Of a stretch of DNA of 64,000 bases, positions 2,450-60,022 are shown piece after piece (within the stretch, counting starts at the first letter, position 1; each line of letters opens with the position of its first letter). The notes below the pieces were generated by a model. It saw only the letters and a program-made list of their open reading frames with translations, did not search any database and had not been told where the DNA came from. The position numbers and the translations under genes are program-made. The DNA is taken from assembly GCA_025353725.1 (NCBI GenBank), contig JANXOF010000012.1:62001-126000 (forward strand). The letters are read 5' to 3'. This DNA comes from Polyangiaceae bacterium. Its GTDB lineage: Bacteria > Myxococcota_A > Polyangia > Polyangiales > Polyangiaceae.

Positions 2450-4126
2450 CTATTGTCGTACGAACTTGAACGGAATGTTTACGGTTGTAGCGGCACCCGG
2501 GGCATTGAAGCGCCAGGCTCTGACCTGTTGCTCGATGCACTTCGCCACGACGGGGTCGTCGCCGCTTGATGATGTGCCCGACACGCTCCCGTCCGGGGCG
2601 ACGGTCGCGCTGACCGTTACATTTACAGACGATTTCTGGTCGGCTCCCCCGCGTTCCCAGCACGTACGCTTGACGCCTGAGCGGTGAGACGCGACCACAC
2701 GCTCGACGGACGACGAGTCGAGGCCTCCTCCAGCTCCGGCCCCAGGCCCGGCTCCGCCCCCGAGGTTCGGACCCCCGGCGCCTCCTAGCAACCCTGAGAC
2801 GTCGAGTCCCTTCTTCTCCTGGGTAACTACGGGCGCCGCGCCGTTCTTCGGTGCGGTACCGCTGGCGCCAACGGTAGCGACTTTTGCGGTCGGAGCTGTC
2901 GATGTCGGAAGGACGTCGACGGACGCGGCAGGAATCGGGATGTCTCCCCTCGTGTCGGCCGTCGCCGCCGCGGTCGCTGGCGGCATCTGCACGACGAGCG
3001 GCGCTGGCGCGGATTGGCGGAAGCTTATCACCGCGGCGGCGACGCCAAACACGCACGCGAAGACGAGAATCGGCCAGAACCAAAGGGGAGCACCACGCTT
3101 CGGTTGGGGCGGCGGGATGGACGGACTCGGCGCCAGAAAAGCCGGCGACGCGAACGGCGCACCGGCGTTGTCGGTCGGGAGTGCGAACGGCGCTGGGGGC
3201 GATGCGAACGGGTCGCTCACCGGTCGTGGCGGCGGAGGAAGCGCAGGCGAAAGAGCTGCGTGGGGCTGTTGCGCGAGCGCCGCCGCTCCGAATGCCCCAG
3301 CTCCTGAGCTGGAAGCGCCAAGCGGTCCTAGCGAGCCGCCCATCAGAGTGGGGCCGGCGCCAGCCTTGTCGTCCGCGCTCGCGGCGAACGAAGGCCGTAG
3401 TGGAACGACGTTGCTCCGCGTAGGCCCGAGCGCGGAGGCCGGCCGTGGCGGATGAGTATCGCCGCGCGGGGCCTCCGGAGCTCGTGATGGAGCGAGCGGT
3501 CGCCCAGGAGCTCGAGGCGGACTTGAAGCCCTTTCACTCGGCGCGACGAGCGAGGGTCGCTGACTTTGGGCCGCTTCGCGAACGAGGGCCGCCAGCTCGG
3601 GTATGCTGCGCACGGCGCGCCATTCCTCGAGTCCCTCCTGCCAGCAGAGCGAGTCTTCGGTGACTGCACCCGACGCGGCCTTGCGCCTCAGCTCTGAAAT
3701 GCGCACGGGGCCTACAGGGACGCCGTTGATCGCGACGTACCATTCGTCCGTGACGCTTATGTCGAGCCCAGCGCCTTGGCCTTGGAAGGACGGGGGGGCC
3801 GTGGACGAACCTTGCACGGTCCGCTGGAAGGCGCCCGCAAGGGCGCTCCCGTGTGCGTGGCTAGGCTGAGCCGAAGGACCCGAAGGTGCTCGTGGCTTTG
3901 CGGCGGAAAGGCTCGTGGCGAGGCCACTGCGGACGAGAGGCCTCGCGGCATCAGAGCCTTGCGTCGACTTCGATGGGGGCGCGCCGGATACACTCGTCTC
4001 CGTTACGGCGGATCTCACTTCGATTTGGTGGCCGCACTTGCGGCATTTCATGCGGACAGTTTTGCCCGCCACCTTTTCGTCGGCGATTTGGTACTTGGCT
4101 TTGCAGTTGTCGCAGAGAAACTTCAA
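2450..4126 (-). CDS. AgmX/GltJ-like motility scaffold: Zn ribbon, GYF, TM, TonB-like C-terminus
   Basis: The 558 residues start MKFLCDNCKAKYQI. A four-cysteine zinc ribbon (Cys5, Cys8, Cys28, Cys31; MJ0042 type) is followed by a linker. A GYF-like domain follows at about 127-183 (EWYVAINGVPVGPV, then EEWRAV). After it come a Pro/Ala/Ser-rich stretch and one membrane helix near 346-368 (PLWFWPILVFACVFG). The C-terminal ~90 residues resemble the AgmX/PglI, TonB-like tail (RTCWERGG, then VNVTVSATVAPDGSV, ending IPFKFVRQ). Known family: AgmX/GltJ spans the inner membrane in the Myxococcus gliding machinery, with Zn-finger and GYF domains in the cytoplasm. This copy has one TonB-like domain. An equivalent role here is inferred; no other glt/agl gene is in the window. 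The next gene upstream is an MshEN-receiver-TPR protein, 156 bases away on the same strand. Confidence 0.78.
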   Translation of the reverse strand: MKFLCDNCKAKYQIADEKVAGKTVRMKCRKCGHQIEVRSAVTETSVSGAPPSKSTQGSDAARPLVRSGLATSLSAAKPRAPSGPSAQPSHAHGSALAGAFQRTVQGSSTAPPSFQGQGAGLDISVTDEWYVAINGVPVGPVRISELRRKAASGAVTEDSLCWQEGLEEWRAVRSIPELAALVREAAQSQRPSLVAPSERASSPPRAPGRPLAPSRAPEAPRGDTHPPRPASALGPTRSNVVPLRPSFAASADDKAGAGPTLMGGSLGPLGASSSGAGAFGAAALAQQPHAALSPALPPPPRPVSDPFASPPAPFALPTDNAGAPFASPAFLAPSPSIPPPQPKRGAPLWFWPILVFACVFGVAAAVISFRQSAPAPLVVQMPPATAAATADTRGDIPIPAASVDVLPTSTAPTAKVATVGASGTAPKNGAAPVVTQEKKGLDVSGLLGGAGGPNLGGGAGPGAGAGGGLDSSSVERVVASHRSGVKRTCWERGGADQKSSVNVTVSATVAPDGSVSGTSSSGDDPVVAKCIEQQVRAWRFNAPGAATTVNIPFKFVRQ

Positions 4127-4282
4127 GGGCTGCTCGCGTTCTCTTGGTTAGACTAACTGCAGTTCCGCGTTCGCGGGAGCACGAAGTTTTCGTCTCTTGG
4201 CGTTTGCGTCAACGAAGCCTCGCTCGTCGCTGAATCTGCCGAGTCTACCGAGTTTACGCTCCAAAGCACGCCTCCCGCCTTT

Positions 4283-5752
4283 CTAGAGAAGTTTTGAGAG
4301 GTGCTCTTTGAGCGACTCGCGCGTGGCGGCGTCTGGCGCGATATGTACGCACCGCTCCCACAGCTCCACGGCTTTGTTACGGAATCCAGCGTTCTCGTAC
4401 AAGACAGCCAGATTTTTGAGTGCAGCGAAGTGTCTCGGGTTGAGCTCGACAGCCCGTTCGAGCTCGCAAATCCCGTCGAAAATCTGCCCCTGTTTGCCGT
4501 AGATGAGCGCAAGGTGGTACCGCAGGCGATACGCGAGCGGGTCCAGGGTTATACCCTTTCGGAGGAGGCCAATAGCGTTCTCGATATTCCCAGCCTTGTA
4601 GGCTGCGATACCATCTTCGAGGTGCTTTGCCGCAGCGCGGTTTATCGCTTCCGGGTCACCCGTGACCTTGGCTCCAGGAGGGCGATCAAGGATTCGATTG
4701 ACCTTTGCTAGAAGCTCGGAAATGCGGAACGGCTTCTCGATAAAATCTTCAATACCGTACGTTGCTTTGAGGTCTTCTTTGATGCGCCATCCTCGGTAGA
4801 TCGCGCTCATCATCAGAATCGGAATTGATCCGTACTTTTCGCTTCCTTTGATTCGCTTAGCGATATCGAAGCCGTGCAACTCGGGAAGCATAGCGTCGAG
4901 CAGCAGGAGATTAGGGAACTCCGTTTTGACGAGTTGCAGCGCGACAACACCTCCTCCTGCTTCGAGGACCTGATGACCATGCTCGGTGAGTAGGCGTTTG
5001 ACGAGTTTGCGGATGTCGTCGTCGTCGTCGACGACAAGAATCTTTTTTCCGATTCCCCGCAGAGGCGCTCCGCCGATCCCCGCGGCTTTGCGCATATCTC
5101 CGCTAAGAACCTCGATCTTTGAGACCTCCTCGTCGAGGAGTTCAAGGTCACGCGTCGCGATCTTGAAGTGGGCCGCTGCCTCCGCGATTTGTTCGTCGAC
5201 CACGACGGAAGGAGACCCCTTTGCGCCGCCGATACCTTCTCCGCTGAGCCGCGCGAGGGCTTCGGCCGGGGCAGATTTACCCGCGTAGTGAGTCGCCCCT
5301 GCCTCTTTCGCGTCGTAGGCGGCTGCGATCGTTTGCTCGAGCGTCGAAGTCATCGCGACGTAGGGGTAGACCCGTCTGCCTGTGACGAATTCGATCTCGT
5401 CAATCACGCGTTTGTCGCGAGGATTGGCCATCGCCAAGAACAAGCGGTCGTCACGCGCGAGAAGGGGAAGGATGAGACTCGCGGAGGCCACTTCTCGCGG
5501 GACGAGATCAAGAGTCTTCGCCGCGATAGCTACCTGATTGAGATCAATTCCTGGGACCCCAAGTTGCTCCGAAAGGGCGCGAAGGACGTCGGTTTCCGCG
5601 ATAGCACCGCTTTGGACGATGCGAGATGCCAGCGGCACGCCGTCGTCCGCGAGCTTTTGCTTTTCCAGCTGCTTGTCGAGTTCGTCTTGCGAGATGAGCT
5701 TTCGCTTGAGCAGAATCCGCCCGATCTGCTGCTGCTTCTTTTCCTCGGCCAT
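4283..5752 (-). CDS. MshEN domain - receiver - TPR fusion protein
   Basis: About 489 residues from the ATG at 5752 (a TTG nine codons upstream is less likely). The N-terminus has two spaced MshEN-type motifs, at about 9-32 (QIGRILLKRKLIS...LEKQ) and 40-63 (PLASRIVQSGAIA...LSEQ). These are the segments that bind c-di-GMP in MshE/GspE-type ATPases, though both are imperfect at the first Arg/Leu-Gly positions. The rest of a GspE N-domain follows to about 150. A receiver domain begins at ILVVDDDDDIRK, with phospho-acceptor Asp286 (LLLLDAMLPELHG) and Lys340 (IEKPF). The last ~110 residues are two or three TPRs (GNIENAIGLLRKGI, LNPRHFAALKNLA). No ATPase or output enzyme domain is present, so this is likely an adaptor that integrates phosphorylation and perhaps c-di-GMP. 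Confidence 0.85.
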   Translation of the reverse strand: MAEEKKQQQIGRILLKRKLISQDELDKQLEKQKLADDGVPLASRIVQSGAIAETDVLRALSEQLGVPGIDLNQVAIAAKTLDLVPREVASASLILPLLARDDRLFLAMANPRDKRVIDEIEFVTGRRVYPYVAMTSTLEQTIAAAYDAKEAGATHYAGKSAPAEALARLSGEGIGGAKGSPSVVVDEQIAEAAAHFKIATRDLELLDEEVSKIEVLSGDMRKAAGIGGAPLRGIGKKILVVDDDDDIRKLVKRLLTEHGHQVLEAGGGVVALQLVKTEFPNLLLLDAMLPELHGFDIAKRIKGSEKYGSIPILMMSAIYRGWRIKEDLKATYGIEDFIEKPFRISELLAKVNRILDRPPGAKVTGDPEAINRAAAKHLEDGIAAYKAGNIENAIGLLRKGITLDPLAYRLRYHLALIYGKQGQIFDGICELERAVELNPRHFAALKNLAVLYENAGFRNKAVELWERCVHIAPDAATRESLKEHLSKLL

Positions 5753-8871: not shown

Positions 8872-10230
8872 TCACGCTCTCGCGTCGTAGACGATGCCGA
8901 GGCGGGTCATCTTGCGCCAGAGTGTAGTGGCCGAGATACTCAGGACTTCCGCAGCCTTTTCGCGGCTTCCATCACACTCGCGTAGGGCTGTCTCGATGGC
9001 CTGCCGCTCGGCTGCGTCGACGACGTCGGCGAGCGTATGACCTGTCCGCACACCGCTCGTGTCCGCCTTCGGAGCGGCAGGCATCACGTCGTCGCGGGTG
9101 ACGATGCCGTTCTGCACCAGCGCCACGGCTTGCTCAATCATGTGCTCGAGCTCCCGAATGTTACCCGGGAAGTCGTAGCTGTTGAGAGCTTCGAGAACGC
9201 CTTCGTCAAGACGCGCCTTCGTTCCCATCTTCTTATTGTACTTCGCCATAAAGTACGTGAGGAGGTCTGGTAAGTCTTCTCGTCTGTCGCGCAAGGCGTG
9301 GAGTTGGAAGCGAGCGACGTTGAGTCGATAGTAAAGATCTTGGCGGAACCGCTTTTCGGCGATCGCCGTCAAGAGGTCTTGATTCGTCGCCGCGATGATT
9401 CGGACGTCCACCTTAATCGGCTTGTTTTCGCCGACGCGGCGTATTTCGCTCTCTTGAATAACGCGTAGGAGCTTCGCCTGGAAAGCCGGGGACGTTTCGG
9501 CGATCTCGTCGAAGAAGAACGTGCCCCCATCGGCTTCTTCAAAGAGCCCCTTGCGCGCGTTGATAGCACCGGTGAACGAGCCTCGCGCGTGGCCGAAGAG
9601 CTCACTTTCGAGAAGCGTGTCGGTGATGGCGGCGCAGTTGACGGGGACGAACATCCGATCCGAGCGCTTGCTATTTGCGTGAACGGCTTTCGCGACAAGC
9701 TCTTTGCCGGTTCCGCTCTCGCCCGTGATGAGCACAATCGCGTCCGTTGGTGCGATACGCACAATGCGCCCGAGTAGCTCACGCACGGCTCGCGACCGAC
9801 CCACTATATTTTCAAATTTATAACGGTCCTTGAATTCGACAGCCAAGAGTGCAACTTCGCTCGCGAGTCGTCGGTTGTCGACGGCTCGCCCCACCTTAAC
9901 CAGAAGTTCTTGCTCGGTAAACGGCTTCTGGATGTAGTCGAACGCTCCGAAGCGCATCGCTTCGACTGCGCTTTCGATGGTCCCGTATGCGGTCATCACA
10001 ATGACCTCGGTCATCGGTTGAGCAGTCTTCACGGCGCGGAGCACGTCGATGCCGTCTTTGGACCCCATGCGAAGGTCAGTAAGCACAACGTCGTAAGCTC
10101 CCGCGCCTCCGCGTTCGGAACCTTCTTCCCCGTTTTGAGCTTCATCCACCTCAAAGCCCGCCCCGCGAAGCATCATGGCGAGCGTGGTTCGCATGTTGCG
10201 CTGGTCGTCGACGATGAGCAGCTTAGCCAT
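8872..10230 (-). CDS. Sigma-54-dependent response regulator, NtrC family
   Basis: Transcription activator that uses ATP hydrolysis to open sigma-54 promoters. The order is as in NtrC. A receiver domain spans 1-120, with acceptor Asp52 in VVLTDLRMG and Lys in IQKPFT. The AAA+ domain has Walker A GESGTGKE, the sigma-54 loop GSFTGA, Walker [10 protein letters not shown] and the R-finger region. A Fis-type helix-turn-helix ends the protein ([20 protein letters not shown]). The sigma-54 loop is GSFTGA rather than the usual GAFTGA. Length of 452 residues is normal. No histidine kinase is adjacent, so the partner is unknown; the broken receiver gene downstream is on the same strand. Confidence 0.93.
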
Positions 10231-10322: not shown

Positions 10323-12479
10323 TCAGAAGAGCACGCCGAGGAGCAAGCGAACGGACTGGGCAGTCGAGAGCTCGTAGTTCACGTTTGGCTTCGCGTTTTG
10401 GGCGGAGCTCTCACCGGGAAGGTAATCAAGCCCGCCGAGCGGAAAGAACACGCCGTACTGGAGTGCGGCGTAGAAGCCGCCTACCCGATTGGGGTCGTCA
10501 TTGAGCGAACCGTCTTTTGACTGGTAGTAAACCTGCAGATTCAGCTCAACTCCGAGGTCACGCTTGTTGCCGGGCGCCTGCACAAACTCGCTCGCGCGAC
10601 TCCAAATAATGGCGGCTCCGCCTCCGAGCTTTTGACCGTTCGGATTTCGAAGGAAGTCATACTCAACGCTCGGGCGGAAATAGTACGCACCTTGTACGCG
10701 TGACATCAAACGACGGAAGAAGATGTAGTCAACCTGGTACGAAGGGTGAAAGCGAAAGGTCGAGATGGCACCGCCGCTCTTTCGTGCTTGAAGACCGTCA
10801 GGACCGGGTGCGAGGCCTTCGACGTGGGGGTCGCCGCTCGACCATCCTGCGCCGAACTGCACGCGCAACTTATCTTCGACTGCGCGATACTCCGTTTGGG
10901 TCGCGAGGCCCCACATGCGGAGTTTGACGGGGTCGTCAACCTTCGCCGTTGGCAGTGAGGGTGAGCTTTCAATCGACCCCCACACCGTCGCGAACTCGGC
11001 CTCCACGCGCAGCTTGCTCCAAAGGATTTGTATCCACGCGTCAGGTGTGAGGGCAACGGCGCCGCGCCGTTCTAGCCCATTGTTTGTATTGCCCGTCGCG
11101 TTCGCCGAAGAGTCGGCAGTGATTGGTGTTTGGCCCTGCGCGAGGTCAAGGAGCTGAGAGCGGTAGGTGGCGTAAAGACCGCCGTTGAGAACAACCTCGT
11201 TACGTGAAAGTTTGAGCCGTTGAAGTTCCGGATTCGTGCGCTTGGCGACGAACGCGGACCATTGGTTTACGTTTGCAAGATTGGCGGTATTCCGGGGCTG
11301 CCCGCCGTACACATCGTACGGAGTCGCGTTCGTGGGACCTGATGAGACGAAGTCCCAGGAGCCACCGAAGTACAGGTCGGCCGATTTAAGTCCAGACACG
11401 AACATGATACGATCGAGGTTCGTCTGATAGTCGTGGTCGATCCCGTCGCCCGAGTTGGAGACCATTCCGAGGCCCCAGTGCCAAGGCATACGACCGAACC
11501 GCAATTGCCCTATCGGAGTGAGGTATTCAGCCCACGCGCGCTGCACGTCGATCGAGTTGCGTAAGCTGTTGATTCCCGACGTGGGCGGCCCCTGCGACGT
11601 TGACAGGGCACCAAGCGGAGCATAACCCCGACCGGCACCCGAAGCGGGGCTGTATCCAGATGGACCCGTGCCACCAGGCCGCATCGCGTACGCGTCGGGC
11701 GTCGAGCCCAAGACGAGGTTGTCGAGGAGATCAATCTGCGACATGATTCGCAGATTGTCTGAAACATGAATTTCAGGGTTGAGGCGAAGTCGAAGGTTCG
11801 CGTAGGCCTCAGTCTTGTCGCCGCATTGACCTAATTGCCCGTTGGAGCCGGCGCTACCGCAAAGCTGGACAGACCGAGGCGCCCCGTTGGCTTGCGTGTA
11901 GCTGGTATCGAGCGGTTGCGGCCAGAGGTTCTGCTGGTCGGCAGCGTCGGCCGGGCGGCCGAGCGCGAAGTTATGGTAAACCTCACCACGCGTGCGGAAG
12001 TAGCCGTGAATTTCGAACGTCGGCCTCGTGTGAGCCCACCAATCCTCGCTGTATACTGTCGACGGACGTACGCCGACCATACCGCTGCTGGAGCTGTCGC
12101 TCGCACCCGCACCCGCACCCGCACTAAGACTCGATGCGTTTGGGGCGCTCGTTGAGGTGAGCGAGCTCGTCGAGTTGAGAGGGTCGACTGGGGTAGTCTC
12201 GCTTGGGTTGCTTTTCGAGGCGGTGGGGGAGGTTCCGGTTGCCGGAGGCGAAAGCGATTCGTTAGCGCCTTCGGTCCGAACGGGTTCCTGGGCGAGGAGG
12301 TTGTCGCCACCGTCGCCTATCCCCTTCGTACCGACAGCGGCGGCGCCTGGGGAAATTGTCCCGGGACGACCGCTAGGAGCGGGGCGCCCAGTGGTCTGCG
12401 CGGATGCGGAGGTCGAGTACAGCACGCCGTTGCCGGCGAGCAGCGCGACGGCGATGAAGCGGTGGCGTCGAAAGACCAT
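10323..12479 (-). CDS. Large outer-membrane beta-barrel-type protein
   Basis: 718 residues with an N-terminal signal peptide (basic MVFRRHRF, hydrophobic core, cleavage likely after ASAQ). A low-complexity Ser/Thr/Pro/Gly region to about 135 follows. The C-terminal ~580 residues are rich in aromatic residues and alternating polar/hydrophobic strands and end LLLGVLF, a barrel-like terminal Phe. Recognisable stretches: PTFEIHGYFRTRGEVYHNF, LRLNPEIHVSDNLRIMSQIDLLDNL, and LRFGRMPWHWGLGMVSNSGDG. From memory this resembles the TIGR04551-type proteins of Myxococcota, which I could not verify. It is likely an outer-membrane protein of unknown substrate. It is transcribed in the same direction as the ihfA-merR group upstream. 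Confidence 0.72.
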   Translation of the reverse strand: MVFRRHRFIAVALLAGNGVLYSTSASAQTTGRPAPSGRPGTISPGAAAVGTKGIGDGGDNLLAQEPVRTEGANESLSPPATGTSPTASKSNPSETTPVDPLNSTSSLTSTSAPNASSLSAGAGAGASDSSSSGMVGVRPSTVYSEDWWAHTRPTFEIHGYFRTRGEVYHNFALGRPADAADQQNLWPQPLDTSYTQANGAPRSVQLCGSAGSNGQLGQCGDKTEAYANLRLRLNPEIHVSDNLRIMSQIDLLDNLVLGSTPDAYAMRPGGTGPSGYSPASGAGRGYAPLGALSTSQGPPTSGINSLRNSIDVQRAWAEYLTPIGQLRFGRMPWHWGLGMVSNSGDGIDHDYQTNLDRIMFVSGLKSADLYFGGSWDFVSSGPTNATPYDVYGGQPRNTANLANVNQWSAFVAKRTNPELQRLKLSRNEVVLNGGLYATYRSQLLDLAQGQTPITADSSANATGNTNNGLERRGAVALTPDAWIQILWSKLRVEAEFATVWGSIESSPSLPTAKVDDPVKLRMWGLATQTEYRAVEDKLRVQFGAGWSSGDPHVEGLAPGPDGLQARKSGGAISTFRFHPSYQVDYIFFRRLMSRVQGAYYFRPSVEYDFLRNPNGQKLGGGAAIIWSRASEFVQAPGNKRDLGVELNLQVYYQSKDGSLNDDPNRVGGFYAALQYGVFFPLGGLDYLPGESSAQNAKPNVNYELSTAQSVRLLLGVLF

Positions 12480-54754: not shown

Positions 54755-57700
54755 TTAGGTTTGGGGAGCCCCGCGGAACGGAAGCGCGCCCGCGTCGGTA
54801 CGCTCGTCGTCGTCGACGTGATTGGACGTCAGGATCGGGGGAGAGGTTCCGTCGTCCGCGTCGTCCGCGATAACGAGATCGCCTGACTCGAGCGATTCGG
54901 GAACAGTGAAGGATTCGCGCGTCTTCGAATAGCGTCCGCTGCCGAAGGTCGCGGCTGCGGCTCCAGCAGGCATGAGGGACCCGTGTTGCCGACTCCGACG
55001 CTCCGTGGCGGCGGCAGGTTCGTACCCGGTTGAGAGAACGCCTTGGGGGAATGGAGGGGCATTTACACCGCCCATTTCGAGGCCATCGAGCGAGGCTTCG
55101 ATTTCGGATTCGAGCGCGCCATCTCCTGCGCGAGGGCGCGCGGTGGTCTCCGCCATCCCCGGGTCCATTTTTGCAACGTTGGATGGCAACGGAGGCGGTG
55201 CGATGCGCGAGGGACGCGCTGTCGTAAGAACCGCTTCGAGAGGCGGCACAGACGCGCGAATGGAAGGCCGAGGCGGGTTCTCTTGCGCGCCCTGCGCGCC
55301 GTGCGACGGCGGCGAAGAGGGGGACGCGCCGCCAGACGGCGGACCCGCGGACGGGAATCCAGAGGTCGCCGGCCTTTCTTTGGAACGCGACGGAGGTGCC
55401 ACGGGCTGCTCGCTCAAAAGTTTCGGAGGTGCGTAAACGAACTTCGGGTCACCTTCGGGCTTTTTTAGCTGAGCGCTTTTCGCACGCTCGAGTCCTTGGG
55501 TTGCCTCTGTATCTCCGACTCTCATCCGCATGACGCGGCGCCAAGCGTCAGCGGCCTCGCGACCATCGACAAGCTGTTCCTCCCAGATTCGGGCCACTTT
55601 ACGCGCGAGTTCGGCGCGAGCGTTCATGTCCTTGCTCCGCAGGATTTGGTCTTCGTAGAGATGGACGAGTGATTTGTAGTCGTTGAGCTCCATGAAAAGC
55701 CCAGCGAGTTCATCCATCACGCTTTGATCTTGCGGCGATAGGTCATGGAGTCGCTTGAGATCGCTGGCCGCGTTGACGGGCTCGACGAGCTGGTCGCGTC
55801 GGATCTTCGCGCGCCTGCCGAGCAGCTGCTTGACAAGGGGGCCGTCAAAGACTTCGCCGAGGGCGTAGGTAAGGGCGGATTCCGCGCGCCGCGGGTCGCC
55901 GCCCTCGATGCCGAGCGACTCGAGCATATCTAGGGTGAGCGAGTCGACATGCGCGACGAGGGCGTCGCCCAACCACGTAAACGCTTGTTCGATATCGTGG
56001 AGATCGCGGTGCGTCATCACGGCTGCACGACGGAGAAGGTTTGCACGCGTACGGCCTCCGTCGCGCGCGCCATGTCCGCCGGCTGCGAGCGCCTGGCAGA
56101 GCGCGCGGCGGAGTCGGTCGCCGCCCCCAAACTTATCGCCGTCGCGTGCCGCACCCTCGAGTGCGAGGAGGGTCTCTTCAGCGGGAGCGCCTGTAAGCGC
56201 GAGCTCGAAAAACCCACGCGCGCGTTCTGGCTGTCCGCGCATCGAGGCCACCTGCGCGGCTCGCGCTAAGGCACGCACGCGGTCGGCAGGAACCTTACTG
56301 CGACTCACTTGGCGCTCGTAGAGGTCAATGACGTCCGCGGCTTTCGCAGCGAGTTGCGACAGACGCTCGAGGAGCGGTTCGGCCTCGCCGGGTGGAATGA
56401 ACGGGAGACCCTGCTCGCCGTGGGTAATGGCATCCGTGCGCGGCATGCCGGCGCGAACGCGTACCTCGGCCTGCCGCACCAGTTCGTGTCCTCGTTCTTC
56501 GCCGTGAACTTCGCGCGCGAGCAGCTCATGCGCGACGGTCACGGCATCGTGGTCGCCGGTTTTGACGGAAAGCTCTTCGAGATGCTCGGCCAGCCTCTTG
56601 TCAGCGCCCTTGGTGCGAATGAGCTCAATGGCAACTTGCACGGCGTCGGCGTCGCGCCCGACCTCGGCGAAGCGCTCGAAGGCGCCGCGCAGCGCCCCCG
56701 TCCGCGCGGACCCATGGCGAGCGTCGAACCACCACTCTTTCAGTTTGCTCGCGACGATGCCTTTCCATCCGAGCTTGTCGCCGAGCGAGATATACGCATG
56801 ACGGACGGTCAAGTCGCCTTGGTCTGCCAAGTCAGTCAGCGCGCCGAGGGCCTCATCGCCGCGGTCTAGTTTTTCCGCCAGAACCGTGGCGAGCTTTTTC
56901 GTTAGCTCGACAACTTCGAGATCATCGGCCTCGATTTCGATGCGTTCGACAAGGAGTTCGGCGACGCGACCCCATTGCTCGGTGAGCTCGCAAAGTTCGG
57001 AGAGGCGAGTGAGCGCGTCGAAGTCTTCGAGGTCGGCTTTACGCACGAGATCGAGGGCGCGAATGGCATTCCGAGGCTCGTCGAGTTTCTCGTAGAGACG
57101 CGCGAGGCGCGCCGCAATCTGCCCTCGTTCTTGGACATCCGCCACGAGCTTCAACTCGCGTTCGAGCGCCTCTGCCGCCTCGGACATGCAGCCGCGAGCT
57201 TCTTGGAGGTCAGCAATCGCTTGGAGTGCCGGTCGACACGTAGGTTCGAGATCGGCAAGAATCAGCTCGTAGCGCGAGATCGCGGTGTCGATGTCTCCGA
57301 CGCCCTCGGCCAGGAGCTCGGCTTCGCGAAGTGCGACGCGTGCTTTTTCGGCCTTATCAACGGTGTTTTGCCCGAGGCGCCGAAGTAACGTCGCCGCCTC
57401 TGTGTGGTCTTCACGTTCGACAGCGTCGTCGATCAAGTGTTCGAGAGCTTCGCGGTCGTCACCGTCTTCAAGCAGCTTTAGCCAGAGCTCACGCGCGAGC
57501 TCTTTGTCCTGCAACCCGGTCACCGCGAGGTTCGCGGCCTCGCGGCGCAGGAGGGTGCGCTTGCCGCGATCGGAGAGGCGATCGCCGCGCTTCGAAAGAA
57601 ACGCTACGAGTTTGTCGACTCGGCGATCGACGTTGTAGCTAGCCACGAGCTGCTCGGCGTAGTCGTCGTTGAGCGGATCGAGGTCCGTCGCCTCTTCGAG

Positions 57701-60022
57701 CCGCTCGAGCGCCGTATCCAAACGACCTGCCTTGACGAGGTAGTCGGCCGCGCGCGCGAAGAACATCGCCTGTTGCTTTACGTCACCTGTGAGAAGGCCC
57801 CGTTGTTGAGCCGCGTTGGCTGCTTTTTCCCACGCTTCGGAGCCCGCGTAGAGCCGGTCGGCGTCCTCCCAAAGCTTACCGCTTCGGAGGGCATCGGCGG
57901 CGTCGGCGAACGAGTCCCCGGCGGCCGACGCGTCGCCAAGCTGCTCTCGGAGCTCGGCGAGCCGCTGGAGCAGTTGTCCACGCGCCACAGAATCTACGAC
58001 CCGGGGTGACCCTTCGCTAAGGATGCTCGCGGCGAGGTCGAGACGTTCTCCCTTTTCGAACAGGCGCGAAGCCGTCAGCGTACTTTGGTCGTCGTCCTTC
58101 GTCAGGCGCGAGATCCGGCACCAGGCGTTTCCGGCGGCGACGAGATCTTTGCGCTTTTCTTCTTGGAGCTTCGCGAGCTTCTTCTCGAGCGATACTTTGG
58201 TGTCGATGTCCGCTTCGATAGCGGCCTCCTGCTCGATCAAGTGCGCGAGATCGTCCCATCGCTGCGACCTTTCGAGGAGACGCATGAGGGCCGTCCGAGC
58301 GCTTTCGTCGCCGCGGTCGAGGCTGAGAAGCTGCCGCCAGGCGGCGATCGCTCCGTCGACGTCGCGAAGGTTACCTTCGCAAAGTCCGGCGACCTCGCGA
58401 AGTCGCTCGTTGCGCGTATCGGCGTGAGCAGGGTCGTCTGCCGTCGCTCGAATGCTTGCGAGGAGCACATCGCGGAGTTGCCCGTAATCACGCTTCGATC
58501 GTAGGTAATCTTCGGTCCACGCAAGGGCTTCGTCGTGGGCGGGTTCGCCCTCTAAAATCTCCTTGTACTTTGCAAATGCTTCCGCCTTTTTACCCTTTCC
58601 GGAAAGCATCTGTGCGGCGTCGAGGACGCCTTGCAGTTTCTCTGGAGTCATCGTTGGGCCGCGCTTGTAGAGCGGCTCAATATCGACCAACGGGCGATGG
58701 CTCGAGAGCGATGCAGTTGGGAGTTTTGATGCCGAGGTCGCCCCGACGGCAGCGACGGCAGCGACGGCAGCGACGAGGCCTCGCTTCGAGGAGCCGACGC
58801 TCGACGCGGTCGTTCGGGTGTGAGCTTCGGAGCCCCCGCCGGCGTCACGCCTCTCGCCTTCTAGCGACCTTGTCGGCGGAAGGTTCGTTTCTTCTTCGCC
58901 TACGAAGGACCCAAGAACCATCGAAGCTAGACTCGATGCCGCGTCCGCAGCTTCGACACGAGCGTCGCTGGAGGGAATCTCGAGCCTAGCGTCGCTCGAG
59001 GCAGAGCCCGCGGGCCTGACGTCAACCGACTTCGCCGCGCGGTGTGCCTCATAGCGTGCCGGGATCTCGTTCTCTTGGCCCAACGCTCGCGCGTAGTGAG
59101 CGTAGAGCTCGACGCCTCGGTCGTTCCCAGGCTCGATGTCGAGTGCGGCGCCCGCGTAAGCGAGCCCGTGCTCGCCCTCGTACGTCTCCGCGAGGGCCAC
59201 GAGGAGCTCGGCCGAGTACGTTCGCTCGGCACCAGAGACCGCTTCGCCGGACTGGATGCGCTCGAGCACGCTTGACGCGTATTCCTGCTGCAATACGGGA
59301 TCGTGTGCGTCGATCTCACGGGCTAACCCGAGCGCTTGCGTGGCTCCCTGGAGGTCCCCTGCGAGCTTCCGCGACGCGGCCTCGTCGCGAAGAAGTCCGA
59401 CGCGTCGTCCCGGATCTTGCTCGAGCTCGAGCTCGGCGCCATAGAGGGGTATGGCACTGTGCCACTCCGCAAGTTGCTTGTAGAGTTCACGCGCATTGTA
59501 AATTGCGTACGCGCTTGTGGGGTCGAGCTCGATGGCTCGCTTATAGTTCTCGAGCGCTTTTCTTGGCTGCACGAGCGGTTCTTCGGCCCATAGACGACCC
59601 AGTTCTTCGTGCATTCCTGCGACTTCGCCGCGGAGCTCGTCGTTCGACGCGGTTTGCGGCGCCAGTGCCTTCGCGCGGCGTTCGAGGAGGGCGACAAGCG
59701 CTTTCGTGTCGCTCTTGTCGCGGTAGAGCTGCGCAAGACGTTCCGCCGCAACTTGCGCCGTAGGGTCCTTGTCGATTGCCATCATCAGCACGCGAGCCGC
59801 GCGATGGGCATCGTCGAGGGCGCCGGACCAGATGTTCGCGGCCTCCGTGAGCCAGTGTGCGGCATGAGCCGCGTCGCGAGTCTCCGACCCTACCCGCTCA
59901 AGGAGCATCGCGTACGCTTTTGGGTCTTGCTCTCCAGCCTGGTGAGCGTCCGCGAGCGACTGCTCGTCGTGGGGGTCGTCAACGAGACGCTGAACCAGCC
60001 GATCCATCGCGGGGCGATCCAT
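54755..60022 (-). CDS. Giant TPR-repeat protein (1755 residues)
   Basis: ATG 60022; an in-frame ATG five codons later is also possible. Residues 1-320 are TPR-like helical repeats (ALENYKRAIELDPTSAYAIY, ALDIEPGNDRGVELYAHYA). Residues 330-450 form a disordered Ser/Glu/Ala linker with an Ala/Val-rich segment at about 412-425. From about 455 to 1590 there are many further repeats (EAFAKYKEILEGEPAHDEAL, LERLEEATDLDPLNDDYAEQ). The last 150 residues are Pro/Ser/Ala-rich. No signal peptide or enzyme domain is seen, so it is likely a large cytoplasmic scaffold. A zinc-ribbon Ser/Thr kinase gene lies 58 bases upstream on the same strand, which suggests the TPR array binds that kinase or its substrates. 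Confidence 0.85.
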   Translation of the reverse strand: MDRPAMDRLVQRLVDDPHDEQSLADAHQAGEQDPKAYAMLLERVGSETRDAAHAAHWLTEAANIWSGALDDAHRAARVLMMAIDKDPTAQVAAERLAQLYRDKSDTKALVALLERRAKALAPQTASNDELRGEVAGMHEELGRLWAEEPLVQPRKALENYKRAIELDPTSAYAIYNARELYKQLAEWHSAIPLYGAELELEQDPGRRVGLLRDEAASRKLAGDLQGATQALGLAREIDAHDPVLQQEYASSVLERIQSGEAVSGAERTYSAELLVALAETYEGEHGLAYAGAALDIEPGNDRGVELYAHYARALGQENEIPARYEAHRAAKSVDVRPAGSASSDARLEIPSSDARVEAADAASSLASMVLGSFVGEEETNLPPTRSLEGERRDAGGGSEAHTRTTASSVGSSKRGLVAAVAAVAAVGATSASKLPTASLSSHRPLVDIEPLYKRGPTMTPEKLQGVLDAAQMLSGKGKKAEAFAKYKEILEGEPAHDEALAWTEDYLRSKRDYGQLRDVLLASIRATADDPAHADTRNERLREVAGLCEGNLRDVDGAIAAWRQLLSLDRGDESARTALMRLLERSQRWDDLAHLIEQEAAIEADIDTKVSLEKKLAKLQEEKRKDLVAAGNAWCRISRLTKDDDQSTLTASRLFEKGERLDLAASILSEGSPRVVDSVARGQLLQRLAELREQLGDASAAGDSFADAADALRSGKLWEDADRLYAGSEAWEKAANAAQQRGLLTGDVKQQAMFFARAADYLVKAGRLDTALERLEEATDLDPLNDDYAEQLVASYNVDRRVDKLVAFLSKRGDRLSDRGKRTLLRREAANLAVTGLQDKELARELWLKLLEDGDDREALEHLIDDAVEREDHTEAATLLRRLGQNTVDKAEKARVALREAELLAEGVGDIDTAISRYELILADLEPTCRPALQAIADLQEARGCMSEAAEALERELKLVADVQERGQIAARLARLYEKLDEPRNAIRALDLVRKADLEDFDALTRLSELCELTEQWGRVAELLVERIEIEADDLEVVELTKKLATVLAEKLDRGDEALGALTDLADQGDLTVRHAYISLGDKLGWKGIVASKLKEWWFDARHGSARTGALRGAFERFAEVGRDADAVQVAIELIRTKGADKRLAEHLEELSVKTGDHDAVTVAHELLAREVHGEERGHELVRQAEVRVRAGMPRTDAITHGEQGLPFIPPGEAEPLLERLSQLAAKAADVIDLYERQVSRSKVPADRVRALARAAQVASMRGQPERARGFFELALTGAPAEETLLALEGAARDGDKFGGGDRLRRALCQALAAGGHGARDGGRTRANLLRRAAVMTHRDLHDIEQAFTWLGDALVAHVDSLTLDMLESLGIEGGDPRRAESALTYALGEVFDGPLVKQLLGRRAKIRRDQLVEPVNAASDLKRLHDLSPQDQSVMDELAGLFMELNDYKSLVHLYEDQILRSKDMNARAELARKVARIWEEQLVDGREAADAWRRVMRMRVGDTEATQGLERAKSAQLKKPEGDPKFVYAPPKLLSEQPVAPPSRSKERPATSGFPSAGPPSGGASPSSPPSHGAQGAQENPPRPSIRASVPPLEAVLTTARPSRIAPPPLPSNVAKMDPGMAETTARPRAGDGALESEIEASLDGLEMGGVNAPPFPQGVLSTGYEPAAATERRSRQHGSLMPAGAAAATFGSGRYSKTRESFTVPESLESGDLVIADDADDGTSPPILTSNHVDDDERTDAGALPFRGAPQT
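58745..58771. repeat. Nine-base repeat, three copies, inside the giant TPR gene
   Basis: gacggcagc repeated three times on the plus strand. On the coding minus strand the triplets read Ala-Val-Ala, making an Ala/Val-rich run in the linker at about residue 417. Length change by slippage would keep the frame because the unit is nine bases. Confidence 0.75.

Follow-up and report, generated by a model that had tools for sequence, protein, structure and literature searches.

Does a gene pair at one end of this DNA encode a membrane scaffold together with its own cytoplasmic regulator, and which signals might that regulator pass on? The pair lies in the window, by which we mean the whole stretch of 64,000 nucleotides that was analyzed, and one of its products resembles GltJ. 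In one model organism, GltJ is a regulatory hub of the gliding machine, and its cytosolic part binds MglA-GTP and AglZ. GltJ is listed among the MglA effectors (PMC12288465).

Organization of the locus

The two open reading frames, here termed SCAF and ADAP, were found on the same strand and 156 bases apart, as the earlier note had reported.

2450..4126, minus strand: SCAF, GltJ-like trans-envelope scaffold gene by profile matches, 558 aa, TTG start
4283..5752, minus strand: ADAP, MshEN-receiver-TPR adaptor gene, 489 aa, ATG start at 5752

In the direction of transcription, ADAP comes first and SCAF follows 156 bp downstream, with no terminator-like site found in the spacer. The upstream side of ADAP is occupied by tgt and queA, followed by a gene for a sigma-54-type response regulator (s54RR, 8872-10230, minus strand), while a DprA-like gene (dprA) lies on the downstream side of SCAF. 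A TIGR04551 family protein (10323-12479, minus strand, 522 bits) is encoded beside the locus and is conserved in close relatives. Elsewhere in the window, a 1755-aa open reading frame (54755-60022, minus strand) gave a weak TPR match only.

SCAF is a predicted GltJ-like membrane protein

The following features were assigned to SCAF:

4022..4126, minus strand: zinc ribbon, residues 1-35 (C5, C8, C28, C31); Zn_ribbon_4, E 5.5e-11
3827..3847, minus strand: SALAGAF short conserved motif, residues 94-100, N-terminal to the GYF domain within the cytosolic linker; candidate docking site
3593..3742, minus strand: GYF_2 domain, residues 129-178; E 1.4e-17
3020..3085, minus strand: single predicted transmembrane (TM) segment, residues 348-369; hydrophobic stretch read from the sequence
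2462..2722, minus strand: AgmX/PglI C-terminal domain, residues 469-555; NF033768, 45.8 bits (cut-off, 40)

The zinc ribbon matches that of GltJ (7zok, E 6.9e-10) and the GYF domain matches the GltJ GYF domain (7z3c, E 9.6e-9), so that the likeness to GltJ claimed in the earlier note extends to the solved domains of the Myxococcus xanthus protein. All four zinc-ribbon cysteines (C5, C8, C28, and C31) are invariant in the SCAF alignment, as are C489 and C530 of the C-terminal domain across 29 orthologs. The N terminus is predicted to lie in the cytosol, and the AgmX/PglI C-terminal domain is presumably periplasmic. The zinc ribbon, GYF domain, and TM segment that had been listed for SCAF were all recovered, but the "TonB-C" label that accompanied them is approximate. 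The TonB_Cterm model TIGR01352 scores 18 bits (E 0.0028), below its cut-off of 27.1, which makes the AgmX/PglI model the right name for this domain.

SCAF thus carries the zinc ribbon, GYF domain, and AgmX/PglI C-terminal domain that characterize the GltJ equivalog, and it is the best match to the GltJ model in its genome. Its score of 93.8 bits against NF033761 falls short of the cut-off of 450, which by the model's own rule classifies the protein as GltJ-like and not as GltJ. No GltJ above this cut-off, and with it no Myxococcus-type reference locus, was found among 222 genomes sampled from the phylum.

The ADAP receiver is intact and its c-di-GMP motifs are degenerate

The MshEN-like domain, receiver, and TPRs attributed to ADAP in the earlier note were each matched by profiles: MshEN at residues 64-150 (PF05157, E 3e-19), the receiver at 238-351 (E 2e-21), and TPRs at 381-485. 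An AlphaFold model (mean pLDDT, 81.7) is confident for an MshEN domain (10-150), a receiver (236-356), and a three-repeat TPR domain (367-488), with a disordered linker (160-235) joining MshEN to the receiver.

5303..5725, minus strand: MshEN-like domain, residues 10-150; c-di-GMP motifs degenerate (96 orthologs)
4685..5047, minus strand: receiver, residues 236-356, phospho-acceptor D286; profile and ortholog counts
4784..4798, minus strand: YRGWR family signature, residues 319-323, immediately N-terminal to receiver helix 4; 96 orthologs
4289..4654, minus strand: C-terminal TPR domain, residues 367-488; profile and AlphaFold; kept in receiver-less ADAPs

A PDB fold search with ADAP returned matches to the receiver part only, which aligns to DivK (1m5t) with a Z score of 22.1 and an rmsd of 1.3 over 123 residues. 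The receiver-site set D242, D243, D286, S316, and K340 is conserved in 92 to 96 of 96 orthologs, including D286 in 95, serine or threonine at position 316 in all 96, and K340 in 95. ADAP therefore has the receiver fold, acceptor aspartate, acidic pair, Ser/Thr, and lysine of a phosphorylatable response regulator. The YRGWR signature is similarly well kept (W322, 95/96; G321, 94/96; R323, 93/96). Since the active site is intact in 95 to 96 of the 96 orthologs, the phosphorylation input suggested previously is plausible.

The second suggested input, c-di-GMP, fared differently. Residues 7-148 of ADAP match PilB (6olj) in fold and sequence (E 5e-20), and the MshEN c-di-GMP motif consists of two 24-residue RLGxx..G..LxxxLxxQ copies (PMC5013675). 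Neither copy is preserved in ADAP, where the Arg and Gly positions are gone in nearly all 96 orthologs. Only 3/96 have the motif I Arg, and Gly10 of the same motif has given way to R, K, or Q in nearly every ortholog; the motif II Gly3 is likewise found in 3/96. Fourteen of the 96 orthologs do not have most of the MshEN N-subdomain. With the motif residues absent or the binding sub-domain deleted across this set, c-di-GMP input through the ADAP MshEN domain was rejected. The second MshEN sub-domain is conserved, and its retention alongside the loss of the c-di-GMP motifs makes protein binding the likelier role of this domain.

ADAP and SCAF are conserved neighbors

The earlier note had proposed a search for conserved adjacency in other Myxococcota, its absence in relatives being evidence against a pairing. 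An ADAP relative is present in 42 of 58 near relatives. In total, 140 ADAP loci were fetched, of which 135 had room downstream; SCAF was located there in 125, corresponding to 95 distinct pairs after de-duplication. In each of these 95 Polyangia-type loci, the gene immediately downstream of ADAP is SCAF, with both genes in the same orientation. The gap has a median of about 85 nt and is mostly 7 to 286 nt, with four Polyangium loci combining a gap of 674 to 985 nt with a divergent zinc ribbon. The pair was found in 12 families of the sample, and the adjacency is far beyond chance; the outcome that would have spoken against a pairing was not seen. The remaining neighbors are retained at lower frequency (tgt, 40/79; queA, 39/68; s54RR, 41/60; dprA, 12/66). 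At three strong ADAP loci without an adjacent SCAF, SCAF is located elsewhere in the same genomes, and seven distant ADAP homologs, outside the core group or in other families, have no SCAF nearby, which counts against a functional pair.

Further genes were observed around these loci. A sigma-54 response regulator of the same type as s54RR is also encoded close to SCAF in several genomes that have no ADAP and is a possible regulator. A gene for a small lipoprotein-like product, whose sequence ends in ...LSGM or ...RSGM, occurs just upstream of SCAF or ADAP in several families (L307, L309, L310, L303, and L150). In one genome (G056, L317), FliQ- and FliR-like genes, read from the sequence only, lie downstream of SCAF.

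The dependence between the two genes appears one-sided. Among the ADAP-less genomes checked, SCAF occurs without ADAP in at least 14 relatives, and in six of these genomes tgt sits directly beside SCAF, as after a clean ADAP deletion. Within the order, no genome was found to have a full ADAP while missing SCAF; in three genomes (G008, G010, and G019), neither gene was found. SCAF thus survives the loss of ADAP, and no opposite case was observed in the order, which suggests that ADAP acts through SCAF and looks like an accessory to it. ADAP itself can also be reduced. One genome (G035) encodes an ADAP without the receiver that still adjoins SCAF, and two more (G046 and G051) encode ADAPs with no receiver match, again with SCAF adjacent. 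Since such ADAPs stay beside SCAF, the working parts that stay constant in the protein appear to be MshEN and TPR, and the natural loss of the receiver indicates that phosphorylation is not always needed. A natural receiver-less ADAP of 354 aa, MshEN plus TPR, is encoded beside SCAF at L301:8011-9075 (plus strand).

A candidate docking motif in the SCAF linker

Motifs of the [ASPGVTK]LxxxF type, to which SALAGAF belongs, are present in the linkers of 57 of 80 paired SCAFs, compared to 1.5 expected from shuffled linkers. The ALAGAF-type motif is found in 57/80 paired and 3/13 unpaired SCAFs (Fisher p 0.0014), a difference that is confounded by relatedness; counted by lineage, the motif is seen in only 3 of 8 independent lineages (Fisher p 0.10). 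Three ADAP-less SCAFs keep the motif, which as a putative ADAP docking site therefore does not track ADAP strictly. The link between motif and ADAP is suggestive only. AlphaFold was also given a single chain translated in frame through both genes, an artificial tether with Gly in place of the stops, using 16 sequences. This gave no docking signal (pTM, 0.39; linker motif pLDDT, 35-43), a result that says nothing against binding.

Relation to the gliding machine and alternative explanations

Instead of lying next to gltI in the G1 glt cluster, SCAF occupies a locus of its own (contig C64) with tgt, queA, and dprA as neighbors. A glt-like cluster is present on another contig of the same genome (C9; L251 and L263), with GltD-, GltE-, and GltG-like genes and a 3891-aa GltI-like open reading frame. 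The genome also encodes a second zinc-ribbon/GYF-like/TM protein of 591 aa (contig C5, L091:9578-11353), whose clade spans the phylum. Membership of the type IV pilus or the Glt core could not be assigned by co-occurrence, as PilB homologs (in 52/52 genomes, with 47 scoring above the cut-off) and GltG-like genes (52/52) occur whether or not the genome has the ADAP-SCAF pair. No motility gene was found at the ADAP-SCAF locus, and we regard a gliding role of the pair, by judgement and not by computation, as doubtful.

SCAF could still be the Polyangiales GltJ itself, relocated from the glt cluster, with ADAP in the role of AglZ in the gliding machine. Its top rank among the GltJ-model matches in its genome fits this idea, and so does the absence of a ZnR-GYF gene after the very large GltI-like TPR gene at all five cluster ends that cover the end of this gene, the window's genome included, whereas gltJ does follow gltI in M. 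xanthus (PMC3169522). In a tree of the zinc ribbon and GYF domain, moreover, GltJ falls on the SCAF side, outside the other paralog clade, although this tree is based on about 95 residues. On the other hand, SCAF is far under the 450-bit equivalog cut-off. Two genomes (G008 and G010) carry a GltG-like gene and no SCAF, and the second ZnR-GYF-TM paralog is widespread, with one member (in G253) beside gltD/gltE-like genes. SCAF may thus be a GltJ that has changed its location or a paralog that serves a different purpose, the tree being too short to decide, and the full scenario with ADAP in place of AglZ seems unlikely to us.

A shared promoter or a slowly rearranging locus might account for the adjacency even if the two proteins have no joint function. 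Partial conservation does extend to the wider locus (s54RR, queA, and tgt), yet the pair outlasts those neighbors across 12 families and ADAP without SCAF was not found in the order, which makes mere proximity improbable. The proposal of the earlier note, in which ADAP is a c-di-GMP receptor through which both c-di-GMP and phosphate would signal to the scaffold, draws on the genuine PF05157 match; set against the motif I, Gly10, and motif II losses and the 14 truncated N-subdomains described above, it is the most improbable of these readings.

A proposed model for the ADAP-SCAF pair

The best explanation, to which we assign a probability of roughly 0.6, is that SCAF is a scaffold and ADAP its dedicated, phospho-switched accessory, together forming a functional pair. 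SCAF would act as an inner-membrane GltJ-like scaffold that extends into the periplasm with its C-terminal domain and, on the cytosolic side, captures cytoplasmic partners through its zinc ribbon, GYF domain, and linker motifs. ADAP, dedicated to SCAF, would be a response regulator of the cytoplasm that binds other proteins through its TPR and MshEN-like domains. Phosphorylation of D286 may alter TPR/MshEN binding to the scaffold, or the delivery of a client, and the altered binding would in turn switch the assembly or activity of an envelope complex. Surface motility is one option for the process under control. As a matter of judgement instead of calculation, we consider the functional pairing itself quite probable, give direct ADAP-SCAF binding an even chance, and see phosphorylation control in most lineages as equally finely balanced.

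More speculatively, Polyangia might control a GltJ-like trans-envelope machine through a dedicated, phosphorylated, neighbor-encoded adaptor that replaces MglA/AglZ of Myxococcus or works beside them, the adaptor being a removable module that can lose its receiver and its MshEN N-subdomain separately; we consider this broader scheme unlikely. If true, a GltJ-like scaffold that has kept a response regulator as its partner would represent a second control route for trans-envelope complexes in a large, little-studied class. Genomes that naturally lack ADAP, the receiver, or the MshEN N-part form a deletion series that would be useful for assigning functions to the parts.

Comparison with known systems

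A literature search for the ADAP-SCAF pair, or for AgmX with GYF, found no description, and the pair appears to be an undescribed, strongly conserved combination of known domain types. MshEN-receiver fusions have already been reported as a class (PMC5013675). ADAP residues 7-148 are alike in fold and sequence to the N-terminal domain of the MshEN proteins PilB, PilF, and MshE, but in contrast to these, ADAP has no ATPase domain and its c-di-GMP-binding motifs are degenerate. SCAF shares with GltJ/AgmX of M. xanthus (NF033761; 7zok and 7z3c) the order of zinc ribbon, GYF domain, TM segment, and AgmX/PglI C-terminal domain; it differs in its low model score, its position outside the glt cluster, and its pairing with an MshEN-receiver-TPR gene. 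In M. xanthus, AglZ and FrzS (both with receiver-like parts) and SgmX (TPR) are cytoplasmic adaptors that link the polarity signal to the machine. All three are MglA effectors (PMC12288465). ADAP resembles them as a predicted cytoplasmic adaptor type with receiver or TPR parts, whereas it combines an intact receiver site with MshEN and TPR domains, has no long coiled coil, and adjoins a GltJ-like gene.
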